Source: Alloactinosynnema sp. L-07
GTDB taxonomy: Bacteria; Actinomycetota; Actinomycetes; Mycobacteriales; Pseudonocardiaceae
Direction of reading: 5' to 3'
Assembly: GCF_900070365.1 (NCBI RefSeq)
Contig: NZ_LN850107.1
Coordinates: forward strand, 496,001-560,000
DNA length: 64,000 nucleotides
Below are positions 26,629 to 31,778 of this stretch, in pieces. A program made the translations under genes and the position numbers. The notes under the pieces are model-generated. The model searched no databases. It was not told the DNA's origin and saw only the letters and a program-made list of their open reading frames with translations. Within the stretch, counting starts at the first letter, position 1. The number at the start of each line of letters is the position of its first letter.

Positions 26629-26938
26629 CTCGGGTCACCTCGAATGTGCTGGTGGACGAGTTGAAACAGTGGTCGGCCGCGGCACCGTGATACTTACTTG
26701 CGAGTATCTTTCAGGTCAAATTCTCACGGTATTGACAAACTTCCGGTCGACAACTGTCCGAAACGACGAACCGGATTCACCTCTCGCTCGTTGCGGCAAG
26801 CAGGTGATCGATTTCCGTCCATCGGCGTGGTGGATCACCTGACCGGTCCACGATGAGTGGCGTGAGACGGTCGGCGTAAGGCCAGGTGGGTGGATACGTG
26901 TTACGCCCGTTTACCGGCACATGGATGAGGCCTGCCGA
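26629..26938. other. 310-bp intergenic region with an AT-richer patch
   Basis: No gene is supported here. Bases about 26690-26770 are clearly lower in GC than the surroundings and probably carry the leftward promoter of the secreted-protein gene: TTGACC and TAAGTA hexamers spaced 17 bases apart can be read on the minus strand. The TACT-N4-AGTA repeat at 26695-26706 overlaps this promoter. The rest, up to the patatin gene stop at 26939, shows nothing recognisable. Confidence 0.5.
26695..26706. promoter_or_regulatory. Candidate operator TACT-tgcg-AGTA
   Basis: Same half-sites and spacing as the repeat at 1665-1676. It overlaps the presumed -10 of the leftward secreted-protein gene. Confidence 0.35.
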
Positions 26939-29122
26939 CTACGCGCGGGCGCAGGTGGCGCACTTCCACGCCGAGGCCCCGTTGTCCCCCCGGCTGCCGT
27001 TGCCGCTGGCCGTGCCCGGCAGCGTCAGGTTCAGGGTGTTGGCCGCCGCGCATCCCGCCGCGTGCCCGAGAGCGCGGTAGGCCTCGAACTGCTCGTCGGT
27101 GAAGGTCTGCTGGGTGGTGGCGTGGTTGGGGAAGCGGGTGTCACGCGCCTTGAACGCGTGCAGGTCCCAGCTGGCGCCCTTGGTCATGACCGCCTTCGCG
27201 TACACCAGTTTCGCGGTCCTGCGGTCGGGATAGGTGACGTTGCCCGCGGCGACCATGGACGTGCTGACCCCGTCACAGTCGGGCAGCACCGCGGTCGGAT
27301 CGAGCCGCACCTCGGCGTCGAGGTCGCTGCGGGCCAGGGCGATGGCGCGGCCGATGTCCAGCCCCGCGCCCTTGATGTCGCAGCTGGCGTCGAAGCACAG
27401 CACGTGGGTGCACCGCCTGCGCAGCAGCTCGACGAGTCCCAGGTTCTCCCAGTGGCCACCGTCGGTCAGGTAGATGTAACGGTGGTTGGACTTGGTGATG
27501 CCCATGGCCTCCCGCAGCACGTAGAGCGCGCCCGGCTCGTGCCACCCGTCCCTTATCCAGGTGAACGCCTTGCCGACGGCGGTCGTCGGCGGCTTGGGCG
27601 GGTCGCTCCACCGGGCGTGGTTGAAGTTCTTGATCCAGACACCGAGCCGGATGTTGGTCAGTGCCATCAGGAACCGCACCGGTGGGTAGGTGTGCCGACC
27701 CATCAGCGGCGACAGCGCCGCGCCGGACATCGCCATGAGTGAGGGCAGGGTCAGGTTGCTGCCCGCGACTCCGCCGTGGTTCTCGATGTCCTTGGTCGAG
27801 GGGCGCTCGCCAAGCGCGGGTCCGCCGCTCCGCTCCCGCTCGAAGGTGAACGACGCCGCGTAACGGCCGGTGGGAGTCTCCCTGCCGGTGAGGTTGACCG
27901 CGCAGCACACGACCAGCTCGGGAAGATGTCTGTCCTTGTTGGGCGGTGTCGCGGAGAAGTACACACTCGTCTTGTAGTCGATGGGGCGGACCACGAGCTT
28001 CCGTCGCCCCGGTTCGCCCTCGACCTGCCGCTGCACGGCGAACGGGATGCAGAGCCGTTCCCGGTAGTGGTTGTGCATCGAGTAGAGGCGATTGTGGACC
28101 GCGACCGCCATCACCGACACGACCAGCGCGAACACGGCCACCCAGATGACATCCCATGGTGAGTCGACTCCGTGCCTGCTGGCGTGCTCCAGCGCGGAGA
28201 GCAGCGGCACGAGCAGCAGGCCCGCGCTGGCGACGTAGGACAGGGTGAGCATCAAGCGCAGCGCACGGAACCGGCGCCCGAGAACCAGCGCGGCCGACGC
28301 CATCACCAGGGACACCGTGAGCCAGAAGGCGATCGCCACCGCACGGCCGAAGAACTCATCGAAGATCCCGGGGTCGCTGCCGAAGACCTTTGTCAGCACC
28401 AGAAGCGCGGCCGCGCGATACAGTTCGGCCAGCGCGGGCAGTGCCATGATCACCACGATGACCCCGGTGGCGACAAGGAAGCCCGCGGTCCTCTGCTCCG
28501 CCCGCCTTTTGGCGAACTCGCGGGGTTTGTCCCTGAACCGCCGCAGCGCGACACAGAGCAGGGCGGCCGCGACGCAGCCCAACGCCGCCCCGAGCGGCCA
28601 CTGGACGGCCGGGGAATCGGGCCACTGCAAGCCGTTGAGGCGCAGATCCGAGAGATCGACTCCAGCGGCGTACAGCAGCCATCCCGTGACCCGGCCCGCG
28701 ATCAGGATGCAGAGCATGAACGGCAGATAGTTGAGCAAGAACCCGAACACGATGCTCGCGGCCATCCACAGCTTGCCGGAGGCGCCGGAGGCGAGGTAGT
28801 CGGTGTTCTGCCGCAGATACCGCTCCTCGGGAGACCCACTGGCCCACAGCGGCTTGTCGCCCTCCGCGACGGGCACCGAGTACTTCGCCGAGATCGTCAG
28901 GGCGCTGGCGATGTAGTTCCCACCGGAGACCGCGGCGAGGTAGCTGGAGTTCTCGAGCACGTGGTGGGCCTGCAAAGCCTGCAACGCGCCGAGATTGAAG
29001 GCGGCCGACCGGATCCCGCCACCGGACAGCGCGATTCCGATCCGATTGCCGTCGGTGGCCTCCAGGAGGTACTCACCCTCCACTTTGGGCAGATCCTTGG
29101 CCTCTCCTGTGGACGCGGTCAT
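26939..29122 (-). CDS. Multi-pass membrane patatin-like phospholipase
   Basis: 727 residues. A patatin lipase domain is split by a membrane region. The oxyanion motif SGGGIRSAAF is at 33-42 and the nucleophile Ser66 sits in AVSGGN. Six or so transmembrane helices follow (about 118-153, 174-194, 213-245, 260-283, 288-312 and 326-345). The catalytic Asp is at about 554 in TDGGHWENLGL, so the Ser-Asp dyad is complete. The C-terminus ends in a CATC pair. It starts 15 bases after the P-loop ATPase gene. Patatin effectors that destroy membranes are known in several phage-defence systems; this role is inferred from architecture and pairing. Confidence 0.87.
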   Translation of the reverse strand: MTASTGEAKDLPKVEGEYLLEATDGNRIGIALSGGGIRSAAFNLGALQALQAHHVLENSSYLAAVSGGNYIASALTISAKYSVPVAEGDKPLWASGSPEERYLRQNTDYLASGASGKLWMAASIVFGFLLNYLPFMLCILIAGRVTGWLLYAAGVDLSDLRLNGLQWPDSPAVQWPLGAALGCVAAALLCVALRRFRDKPREFAKRRAEQRTAGFLVATGVIVVIMALPALAELYRAAALLVLTKVFGSDPGIFDEFFGRAVAIAFWLTVSLVMASAALVLGRRFRALRLMLTLSYVASAGLLLVPLLSALEHASRHGVDSPWDVIWVAVFALVVSVMAVAVHNRLYSMHNHYRERLCIPFAVQRQVEGEPGRRKLVVRPIDYKTSVYFSATPPNKDRHLPELVVCCAVNLTGRETPTGRYAASFTFERERSGGPALGERPSTKDIENHGGVAGSNLTLPSLMAMSGAALSPLMGRHTYPPVRFLMALTNIRLGVWIKNFNHARWSDPPKPPTTAVGKAFTWIRDGWHEPGALYVLREAMGITKSNHRYIYLTDGGHWENLGLVELLRRRCTHVLCFDASCDIKGAGLDIGRAIALARSDLDAEVRLDPTAVLPDCDGVSTSMVAAGNVTYPDRRTAKLVYAKAVMTKGASWDLHAFKARDTRFPNHATTQQTFTDEQFEAYRALGHAAGCAAANTLNLTLPGTASGNGSRGDNGASAWKCATCARA

Positions 29123-29137
29123 GGCCGTCTCCGATGG

Positions 29138-30784
29138 TCAATTCGTGATGTAGCCGAACGCCCGGCGGTAGTCCTCGCCCCTCAGCTCGCACCCGTAGGG
29201 GTAGGTCGCGTGCGCCTTCTCACGGCGCAGCCGCGACATCGACTGCTCCAGCAGGTGCCGGGTGAAGAGCGGGTGGATGCACAGGTAGTCGCGGTCTTCC
29301 TCGCAGTTGAGCCCGTGATCGAAGGTGTACTGGAAGTAGGTCTTGTTGTAGCGGCCGGTCTGGTCGAACCGGACGCCGAGCACCCCGAGCGCGAACAGCA
29401 TCGACACGAACTCGTCGAAGTCCAGTCGGGTGAGGTTGCGGATCCCCTGCTGGTTGTAGATCTTGTGCAGGGTCCGGACCGGGAAACAGAGGTCGAGCTT
29501 GCCCGCCAGCCTGCGCAGCGCGTCCGCCGCCTCGGGATAGGAGGCCTTGTAGGCGCTCAGGATGCCGCTGACCAGCATCCGCTCGGCGCTCCTGGTGCCG
29601 GTGCTGATCGCGTGGGGCGTCACCGCCCACGGCCGCGAACCGTCGTCGGTCCGGCGGAACACCCGGTTGAGGATCTCGATCAGGTGCCGGGGCAGCAGTT
29701 GGGTGTGCCGCAGCAGATAGGCCAGCGGGTCTTCCTCGATCTGCAGGTGGCCGTAGATGCGCTTGGGCAGCGCCGCCCGCAGCAGCGCGATGTTGCGGTC
29801 CGGCCCGTCGACGTCGCCCGCTTTCGCGCGCAGTTCCTTCCACTCCTCCGGGTGGTTGAGCCGCAGGAACAGATCCAGCCTGGACCCCGCCAGGTGCAGC
29901 AGCTCCGGCGCGGTCCAGAAGATCTTGAGATGGTTGCCTTGCAGGTCCTTCTCCGGAGCCGCGGCCAGATCGTGGATCTTGTCGTAGAGCTCGGACGGCA
30001 GACAGATCTGCAGCCCGTAGGGCTGACTCGACGCGTGCCGGGCGACCACCCGGCCCGCGCACCGGAACAGGCCCGCCAGCACCTCGGTCAGTTCGTGCAG
30101 CCGCAGTTGCAGGTCCTCCAGGTTGTCCATCACGATGATCACCGGCTGGGCGCGCTGGGCCAGCAGGGCCCGCATCGCCGTGCGGGCCTGCTCGAAGGTG
30201 ACCCCGCCCGCGCTGACACCCGCGATGACCTCGTCGAGTCCGAACGCGGTGTCGTCGTTGATCCGCCGGGTCAGGTCGCGCAGGAAGTGTTCGACCGCGT
30301 GCGTCGAGTCGGTCGGTCTGGTGCCGTCACGGTGCAGGAAGTCGGTGATGGTCTGCAGTTCGCGGTGCGCGTCCGTCGGCGACGCCGTCCGCCACGTGTG
30401 GAAGATCGCGACCTGGTCGAACGCCGCGGTCCAGATGTCGGACACCTGGTCGACGAACGGCCTGCCGTGTCTGCGGTCGTGGGCGTGCAGGACCCGGAGC
30501 ATCTCGAGGTAGACGTTCTCGGTCTTGAGGATCTCGTGGCCTGGCGCGTCGCCGAACAGCGAGCAGACGAGGAACGCGGTCTTTCCGGAGCCCTTGCGGC
30601 CGATGATGTAGGTCGGATGCGCGTCGGCCTGGGCGTAGATGACATTGGACCGGTCGAACAGCTGCTGGGCGAGTTCGTGCCCGAAGTGATCGATGGCCTC
30701 GGTGTAGCCGGGGCCGAACGGCTGGTTCGGCGTGAGGACTTCGCGCAGTCTGGTCGGGTCGACCAGGTCGGTGTAGTGGTCCAC
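29138..30784 (-). CDS. P-loop ATPase, Sll1717-like, partner of the patatin
   Basis: 548 residues. Walker A is GRKGSGKT at 62-69 and Walker B VIIVMDN at about 215-221. The middle is helical, with QLRLHELTEVLAGLFRCAG. The C-terminal third contains a winged-helix-like stretch (LTRLDFDEFVSMLFALGVLGV) ending near IHPLFTRHLLEQ. The overall plan fits the STAND/KAP-like ATPases annotated as Sll1717 family. It is the first gene of a two-gene leftward operon with the membrane patatin, and probably senses a trigger and controls the lipase; that is inference. Codon use is like the backbone. Confidence 0.82.
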   Translation of the reverse strand: MDHYTDLVDPTRLREVLTPNQPFGPGYTEAIDHFGHELAQQLFDRSNVIYAQADAHPTYIIGRKGSGKTAFLVCSLFGDAPGHEILKTENVYLEMLRVLHAHDRRHGRPFVDQVSDIWTAAFDQVAIFHTWRTASPTDAHRELQTITDFLHRDGTRPTDSTHAVEHFLRDLTRRINDDTAFGLDEVIAGVSAGGVTFEQARTAMRALLAQRAQPVIIVMDNLEDLQLRLHELTEVLAGLFRCAGRVVARHASSQPYGLQICLPSELYDKIHDLAAAPEKDLQGNHLKIFWTAPELLHLAGSRLDLFLRLNHPEEWKELRAKAGDVDGPDRNIALLRAALPKRIYGHLQIEEDPLAYLLRHTQLLPRHLIEILNRVFRRTDDGSRPWAVTPHAISTGTRSAERMLVSGILSAYKASYPEAADALRRLAGKLDLCFPVRTLHKIYNQQGIRNLTRLDFDEFVSMLFALGVLGVRFDQTGRYNKTYFQYTFDHGLNCEEDRDYLCIHPLFTRHLLEQSMSRLRREKAHATYPYGCELRGEDYRRAFGYITN

Positions 30785-30838
30785 GGCGGTCTCCAGGGTG
30801 GAGGGTATGCCTGGAACTCGTCCGTTTGGACTGGGCCG

Positions 30839-31018
30839 TTACGCCAATGGCAGGACAAAGTCACGCGCTGCGAACACGCACGACCACGGATTCGTCGTAG
30901 CGGTCCAGAGGCGTCCTGGTCGAATAGCGCGCTCGATGAACCCGCTGCGCCCTCGCGCGCCGACTCGCTGATCAAGTTCTTCGACCAGTGTGTCGTCGAT
31001 GCTTATGTGCAGACGCAT
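30839..31018 (-). pseudogene. Remnant of a ribbon-helix-helix antitoxin gene
   Basis: The first 33 residues (MRLHISIDDTLVEELDQRVG and GRSGFIERAI) are a clean RHH antitoxin N-terminus of the VapB/CopG kind. The reading then runs into an unrelated tail and stops, losing the region that would bind a toxin. No PIN-domain toxin gene follows. It lies upstream of the ATPase gene on the same strand, at the edge of the presumed island. Confidence 0.5.
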
Positions 31019-31043
31019 GGGCACAGCATGGCCGACACTTCGC

Positions 31044-31778
31044 TCAGGCGCTGCGGACTTGGGCCCGTTCGACCGAGTCATAGCGGTCCAATACCAGGTC
31101 CGCCACCTCGACGGCAGCGCCCAGTGGGGCGGCCACCCGGACCGTCGGACCTGCCTGGGCGATCACCCGATCGGGTAGCAGTCCCGGCGCCAGGAACCAG
31201 GACGCGACGGCGACCCGTTTCGCGCCTCTGGCGCGCAGGGCGGCGATCGCGCTGGACACGTCCGGGTCGGTGGCCGACGCGAAGGCCGCGCGGACCCCGG
31301 ACCAACCCATGACCCGGGACCACCGTTCGGCCACCTCGTGCACGCGGGCGTTGGCGGGCGCGTGTGACGAGCCGGTGGCCGCGAGGACCACGCCGAGGTC
31401 CGGGTCCCCGGGGACCACGTCGATCTCGGTGAGCCTGCGCAGGGCTGCGGCTTCCAACCGCGCGTCCGGGCCGAGCACGTCGGTCACGGTCACCGAGAGC
31501 AGCGGCAGCCGCGCCTCGGTCTCGGCGATCAGGGCGGGAAGGTCCACGCGCGCGTGGAACGCCCGGCCCAGCAGCAGGGGAGCGACCACGACGTCGCGGT
31601 GGCCCTCGGCGTGCAACGTCGCCAGTACGTCGGTCAGCAGCGGTACCGACAGGTCGAGGAACGCGCCGCGCACGTCCAGGTCGGGGCGTCGGGCACGGAC
31701 CACGTCGAGCAGCTCGGCCACCGTGGCGGCCGAGCGCGGGTCGCGGCTGCCGTGGGCGACAGCGACAAGCGGCGTCAC
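31044..31778 (-). CDS. Sirohydrochlorin chelatase-family protein (CbiX/SirB type)
   Basis: Inserts iron (or cobalt) into sirohydrochlorin, giving siroheme for the sulfite reductase encoded upstream. The 244-residue product has two CbiX halves. The N-terminal half carries the metal-site VAHGSRDPRS and LLLGRAFHARVDLP; the C-terminal half carries LAATGSSHAP and VASWFLAPGLLPDRV. It is the last gene of the sulfur operon, as its mycobacterial counterpart (next to cysH) also is. Siroheme supply explains the linkage. Confidence 0.88.
   Translation of the reverse strand: MTPLVAVAHGSRDPRSAATVAELLDVVRARRPDLDVRGAFLDLSVPLLTDVLATLHAEGHRDVVVAPLLLGRAFHARVDLPALIAETEARLPLLSVTVTDVLGPDARLEAAALRRLTEIDVVPGDPDLGVVLAATGSSHAPANARVHEVAERWSRVMGWSGVRAAFASATDPDVSSAIAALRARGAKRVAVASWFLAPGLLPDRVIAQAGPTVRVAAPLGAAVEVADLVLDRYDSVERAQVRSA

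Follow-up and report, generated by a model that had tools for sequence, protein, structure and literature searches.

A gene for an Sll1717-family P-loop ATPase and a gene for a membrane patatin, adjacent in the 64,000-nucleotide stretch of Alloactinosynnema sp. L-07 DNA that was analyzed (the window), make up a real, conserved and mobile module which is not recognized by the defence library used. Both open reading frames (548 and 727 aa) were confirmed on the minus strand, 15 bases apart, as the first-pass annotation had placed them. The interpretation given there holds for a conserved two-gene module and fails for a defence-island neighborhood.

Conservation of the gene pair

A search for the ATPase in 84,980 species genomes gave at least 79 loci, in which the partner was found by means of a membrane-patatin profile. 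Among the matches listed, 16 of the 79 loci have a membrane patatin immediately downstream in the same orientation, which together with the window gives 17 loci with the adjacency that had been proposed for checking. They come from five orders of actinobacteria and from a gammaproteobacterial MAG, the hosts being Umezawaea, Lentzea (four loci), Actinokineospora fastidiosa, Nakamurella, Blastococcus, Geodermatophilus, Nonomuraea (three), Acrocarpospora (two), Virgisporangium and one Granulosicoccaceae MAG. When the called genes were compared all against all, ATPase and patatin were the only families present in all 17 loci, the next largest family being present in 3 of them; the gene caller was seeded with ATPase and patatin and misses some neighbors, e.g., those of locus L041, whose flanks are syntenic with those of L044. 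In pairs with clear gene starts, the two genes are separated by 1–15 bp or share 4 or 17 bp. Spacing was left uncounted in L036, L038, L041, L044, L081, L083 and L090, with over-long called starts.

Of 298 genomes sampled evenly across the order, 24 had patatin matches (some of them weak) and 3 had ATPase matches, with both genes adjacent in all 3; within the genus, 2 of 16 genomes harbor the pair. Both counts include the window's own genome. Ten pair genomes were analyzed with the patatin profile, and nine of them contain one copy and one contains two. Considering the best 120 clusters listed for each protein, 37 ATPase clusters share a contig with a patatin cluster, contig identity being judged by proxy; the proxy also equates the contigs of L037 and L040 with those carrying the copies in G162 and G135. 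Of the 79 ATPase loci among the matches listed, 63 gave no patatin; in some of these, the examined DNA stops soon after the ATPase. Related patatins occur as well without the ATPase.

A protein with multiple hydrophobic segments encoded upstream of the ATPase was considered as a third operon member and rejected, as among the loci examined it is present only in Lentzea loci L038 and L039, and the module in general lacks it. Protein P0261, a 1204-aa single chain with both ATPase and patatin, was likewise rejected as a natural fusion: it gives weak support for the pairing because its junction and its end seem to be read in the wrong frame and its source is a single 5.6-kb metagenome contig.

Features of the two proteins

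The ATPase (29138–30784, minus strand) is an AAA+ protein with ORC/STAND-like features. Its Walker motifs are intact, in agreement with the first-pass annotation. Walker A corresponds to GRKGSGKT (residues 62–69; 30578–30601, minus strand) and the Walker B region to VIIVMDNLED (residues 215–224; 30113–30142, minus strand), including IIVMDNLED at 216–224. Residues G62, G67, K68 and T69 of the former and D220 and E223 of the latter are identical in 36/36 aligned pairs. The protein scores 159 bits against NCBIfam model NF047389 ("P-loop ATPase, Sll1717 family"; cut-off 75) and 20.3 bits against the Pfam ORC-CDC6-like model, below the cut-off of 27. Fold matches cover residues 16–512 and include ORC/Cdc6-like proteins, tied with p97. 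The longest variable stretch comprises residues 126–200, the C-terminal part looks like a winged helix when judged by its predicted order of helices and strands, and a Pfam scan found neither sensor repeats nor a repeat sensor domain.

The patatin gene (26939–29122, minus strand) codes for SGGGIRS at residues 33–39, for Ser66 within AVSGG (codon 28925–28927, minus strand) and for Asp554 within DGGHWENLG (codon 27461–27463, minus strand). Both residues are predicted to be catalytic, Ser66 by comparison with the patatin family. Ser66 and Asp554 are invariant in the 32 rows of alignment A2, and the patatin hallmarks (oxyanion G34–36, S66 and D554–G556) are kept in 36/36 pairs. As Ser66 and Asp554 of the lipase and Lys68, Thr69, Asp220 and Glu223 of the ATPase are identical in all 36 aligned pairs, the observation is not due to chance.

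Six hydrophobic segments, at about residues 118–347 (28082–28771, minus strand), separate Ser66 from Asp554. Hydropathy and loop charge predict them to be transmembrane helices: the loops after helices 2 (197–204) and 4 (283–286) contain three K/R each, and the others contain 1, 0 and 0. In the AlphaFold2 model (pLDDT 84.5), residues 113–341 form six long helices, and the Ser-Asp dyad split by about six membrane helices that had been noticed from the letters is thereby borne out. The protein misses the Pfam gathering cut-offs of both PLA2_B (PF01735; 20 vs. 23 bits) and Patatin (PF01734; 20.6 vs. 27.7 bits); many of its close relatives carry Pfam patatin labels. Its nearest fold is human Group IV cPLA2 (1cjy), a strong fold match but with 15% identity. 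Taking into account both the missed cut-offs and the strong fold match, we describe the protein by its fold, without claiming membership of a Pfam family: the model is that of a cPLA2-like fold and of a predicted phospholipase. In cPLA2, a soluble cap lies between Ser and Asp, and a C2 domain is present. The lipase differs in having six transmembrane helices at that place and no C2 domain.

Mobility and co-evolution of the pair

Distances between ATPases and between patatins were compared along 36 pairs (the window, 16 genome loci and 19 of the 37 proxy-matched contig pairs). They correlate with r = 0.97, and with r = 0.84 for the 25 closest pairs (Mantel test); the highest values reached in 2000 permutation runs were 0.46 and 0.36, respectively. 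The lipase and the ATPase of the congeneric A. fastidiosa copy share 59 and 57% identity, respectively, with those of the window, vs. 74% for CbiX and 82% for enoyl-CoA hydratase, and the copy of Umezawaea, another genus, is equally close to the window (60 and 61%). A gene flanking the A. fastidiosa copy lacks close relatives elsewhere in the genus (best 35%). Lentzea fradiae and L. terrae have in common a 4.45-kb block, 89% identical, which ends at the lipase stop codon; outside this block, their 21-kb loci have only 40 bp in common (E ≤ 1e-5). In Blastococcus and Geodermatophilus the pair occupies a syntenic place and is 70% identical, vs. 76 and 84% for the flanks. ATPase and lipase are thus encoded, inherited and moved together. 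No match to the ATPase was found on plasmids, phages or viral contigs, apart from one distant PHROG match. Relatives of the patatin occur on 35 plasmids, all below 60% identity and none with a single place covering 80% of the query.

The insertion site

The pair is located within a 4144-bp inserted segment (26933–31076), between the CbiX gene, at its 3′ end, and the gene of a 207-aa protein. The blastn alignments of loci L133 and L134 to the window end at 26932 and 26923, respectively, and pick up again at 31077. CbiX is present in 16/16 genomes of the genus. Nine of the 15 other genomes were fetched and searched for either protein, and none has the pair at the CbiX site; the gap between CbiX and the 207-aa gene is 0.27–0.39 kb in six of the nine and 1.5 kb in one, and the 207-aa gene was not found in two. 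The window segment has been acquired at this site rather than being ancestral. The distance from the 207-aa gene to the enoyl-CoA hydratase gene also varies (3.2 kb in L134, 2.6 kb in L138).

A 19-bp sequence at 30889–30907, identical to L133 and L134, corresponds to the displaced ancestral CbiX 3′ end. The region of this displaced end and nucleotides 31077–31090 form a 14-bp direct repeat (13/14 identical; family D20), which brackets a truncated RHH/VapB-like antitoxin fragment (30908–31018, minus strand, within the same insert; listed open reading frame 30839–31081). Displaced end and direct repeat around the fragment indicate that the spot has probably been struck at least twice. The decayed antitoxin of the first-pass annotation is this fragment, with a score below the cut-off for the family (RHH_1, 18.9 vs. 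20.5 bits). Promoter and terminator scans gave no signal above chance.

Genomic neighborhood

The first reading had set the pair in a defence island. We scanned 130 of 138 selected neighbors of pairs (eight were left out, and L041 contributed none) with Pfam and with the 2023 release of PADLOC, outside of which later systems fall. At E ≤ 1e-8, 38 PADLOC families were matched, all of them by five of the 130 neighbors (two in L034 and one each in L081, L077 and L039): 3 of the families trace to three ABC-type ATPases, 32 to a kinase and 3 to a subtilase. Counted without a background set, these five matches give no visible signal of enrichment in defence genes. A CBASS CD-NTase is absent from 31 of the 38 families, and the remaining seven are again matched by the kinase. 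Around the window, the sole PADLOC match is that of the BrxP model to a 227-aa protein, among genes read as sulfate assimilation, and no CBASS model matched any of the ten window neighbors. By Pfam (best 25 of 169 families listed), the neighbors are metabolic, regulatory and secreted-enzyme genes. The island setting was accordingly dropped, the pair being surrounded by ordinary genes. A predominance of lipid-metabolism genes, which would have spoken against a defence role, was not seen either: none of these listed families that is related to lipids recurs in more than two of the 130 neighbors.

Relatives of the ATPase with other candidate outputs

Several relatives of the ATPase are fused to other domains. 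TIR is present in P0214, P0215, P0216 and P0218 (771–782 aa; N-terminal in the two scanned), in P0257 (N-terminal) and in P0262 (C-terminal). Among the 23 long ATPase-family proteins, query included, 17 contain BTAD and 15 of those 17 a Ser/Thr kinase. Domains were scanned for L042, taken from record P0246 (a proxy match) for L043 and judged from sequence for L068. An FAD/NAD(P)-type protein immediately follows the ATPase in L082, L088 and L095, and a second AAA ATPase in L073.

On the ATPase tree, the distribution of TIR needs three changes (3–3 in bootstrap trees), by which TIR would have been gained three times in the family. When the tree is rooted on other ATPases, the clade of P0214–P0216 and P0218 falls among the lipase-linked ATPases, with a support of 100/99 for the joint clade; four ATPases without known partner adjoin the TIR clade. 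If lipase and TIR rows are considered alone, they split on one branch, and nesting of the TIR clade depends on the outside rooting. Ten ATPase loci, mostly from Anaerolineales, have common genes upstream of a lone ATPase, and part of the family may therefore have a vertical, non-conflict role.

As relatives are fused to TIR or to BTAD and kinase, their architecture suggests a common switch in the ATPase, with the lipase as one output among several exchangeable ones (lipase, TIR, BTAD-kinase). These fusions are the strongest argument for the ATPase as switch.

Discussion

Taking into account that relatives of the ATPase carry another domain likely to kill, an undescribed self-destruct defence module is the most likely reading of the pair. 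We give about even chances to a mobile two-gene conflict or cell-suicide module whose ATPase acts as a switch and turns on a phospholipase embedded in the membrane. Such a module would probably act by abortive infection, with phage defence as its likeliest use. An AAA+ ATPase and a cPLA2-like membrane lipase are encoded, inherited and moved as one unit; the subsequent steps can be proposed as follows. The cytosolic ATPase would sense a sign of infection (DNA or a DNA-protein complex, perhaps) and undergo an ATP-linked change of state or oligomerize. It would then touch the lipase at its cytosolic catalytic domain, which is presumably held at the membrane by the six helices that separate Ser66 from Asp554, and lift the inhibition of the enzyme. 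Membrane phospholipids would be cut by Ser66/Asp554, leading to membrane failure and to cell death or growth arrest. A broader proposal, which we put forward tentatively, is that of an undescribed bacterial immune family: an ORC/STAND-like Sll1717 switch with a split cPLA2-like lipase, TIR or transcription-factor/kinase outputs, in which the ATPase would open the lipase directly, without a second messenger, and the membrane of the infected cell would be destroyed.

The tight spacing of two mobile genes, regulator first and toxin second, with no general third gene, would also suit a toxin-antitoxin-like addiction pair, the lipase being the membrane toxin and the ATPase an inhibitor whose loss frees it, without phage sensing; the remnant of an RHH antitoxin in the insert points to an earlier addiction module at this spot. 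We consider this unlikely, since the ATPase is large and conserved in its ATPase residues, a TIR or kinase domain in the same chain, as in relatives, is more in keeping with a switch than with a mere inhibitor, and ATPase loci without patatin predominate among the matches listed (63/79). Presence in only 2 of 16 genomes of the genus, the absence of a recurrent third gene and of any listed lipid family in more than two of 130 neighbors, and the TIR exchange in ATPase relatives all argue against regulated lipid remodeling or a membrane-stress response, in which the ATPase would control a membrane-adjusting phospholipase as an accessory trait. The ordinary metabolic neighborhoods, the existence of related patatins without ATPase and the syntenic position in two Geodermatophilaceae genomes are in its favor; the syntenic pair is, however, more diverged than its flanks, and we regard such a role as improbable. 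The same ATPase-to-lipase mechanism might instead be directed at plasmids, conjugation or competitors rather than phage, the ATPase sensing foreign replicons. ORC/Cdc6-like matches of the ATPase and the mobile, patchy occurrence of the pair agree with that target, but nothing in the data discriminates the trigger and no neighboring gene family recurs in over 3 of the 17 loci, and we give it a slim chance.

Among the closest known systems are the CBASS phospholipase effectors CapV and CapE, from which the pair is set apart in that no CD-NTase is present among the PADLOC matches listed for its neighbors. The nearest class for the ATPase is that of the STAND/ORC-Cdc6-like AAA+ conflict ATPases (SSO1545 fold, BrxC/BrxD of BREX, TIR-AP-ATPases). 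It differs from them in comprising 548 aa only, with no repeat sensor domain found and no BREX partners seen, and in having a separate membrane lipase as output. The window ATPase qualifies for NF047389, a model whose name gives neither a function nor any coupling to a lipase. Conflict systems that depend on NTP and use TIR or other effectors have been described, mostly in multicellular prokaryotes (available text of PMC7159879). We found no paper for "sll1717" and no description of the ATPase-patatin pair in literature on patatin or phospholipase with ATPase or defence topics, a search outside of which subscription papers and bioRxiv fall. The pair is not described in the available portions of PMC12657218, PMC12839542, PMC12419801, PMC7159879 and PMC8195603, and the word "patatin" has no match in those of the last two.

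If an ATPase switch does activate the lipase, a direct ATPase-to-membrane-lipase route would join the known triggers of bacterial cell suicide, an uncharacterized NCBI ATPase family would gain a testable function, and bacteria would have a cPLA2-like enzyme embedded in the membrane. With lipase and TIR exchanged on one switch, the cue of the ATPase would become a single question with several read-outs.

Probable traces of other insertions next to the ATPase-patatin pair

A truncated RHH/VapB-like antitoxin fragment, devoid of a toxin partner, lies at nucleotides 30,839–31,081 of the window. It is flanked on both sides by a 14-bp near-perfect direct repeat, the sequence of which originates from the 3′ end of the CbiX gene. 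The toxin-less fragment and its repeats are probably left over from a previous insertion at the site that the pair now occupies. Two congeneric relatives that lack the pair at this site carry other genes between the 207-aa protein gene and the enoyl-CoA hydratase gene, close to the insertion spot of the pair in the window: a glycine-rich ESX-like protein pair in L134 (7918–11172) and tandem proline-iminopeptidase-like hydrolases in L138 (2875–5472), both named by eye. As different genes occur near the same spot in these relatives, the CbiX/207-aa/enoyl-CoA hydratase region could be a hot spot for integration.

Variation in the partners of the ATPase and of the patatin

Among the loci examined, only those of two Lentzea species have an additional gene that lies upstream of the ATPase gene and travels with the pair (L038:9327–9893 and L039:9302–9856); its product is about 189 aa long and shows, by eye, some four hydrophobic segments. 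Patatins with internal hydrophobic segments also occur where the ATPase is absent (L004, L005, L006 and L012); in the latter three, a long N-terminal extension bears additional hydrophobic segments (by eye).

At three loci (L082, L088 and L095) a FAD/NAD(P)-type Rossmann protein is encoded directly downstream of the ATPase, and is a possible further output. The window's own genome encodes a separate protein (L156, C1:1225314–1225964) that is 37% identical to the portion of the TIR-ATPase fusion P0216 comprising the TIR domain and the linker.

Locus L066 (8307–12413) contains two diverged Sll1717-family ATPases in tandem; the protein encoded after them is 260 aa long, matches no Pfam family and has hydrophobic segments (by eye). 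Lone Sll1717-family ATPases were found downstream of shared genes at ten loci from Anaerolineales and related MAGs (L051, L052, L053, L055, L060, L062, L063, L064, L072 and L085); the upstream genes encode proteins of about 306 aa (10/10 loci) and of about 518 and 360 aa (most loci). These lone-ATPase loci suggest a possible vertical role for the Sll1717 family.
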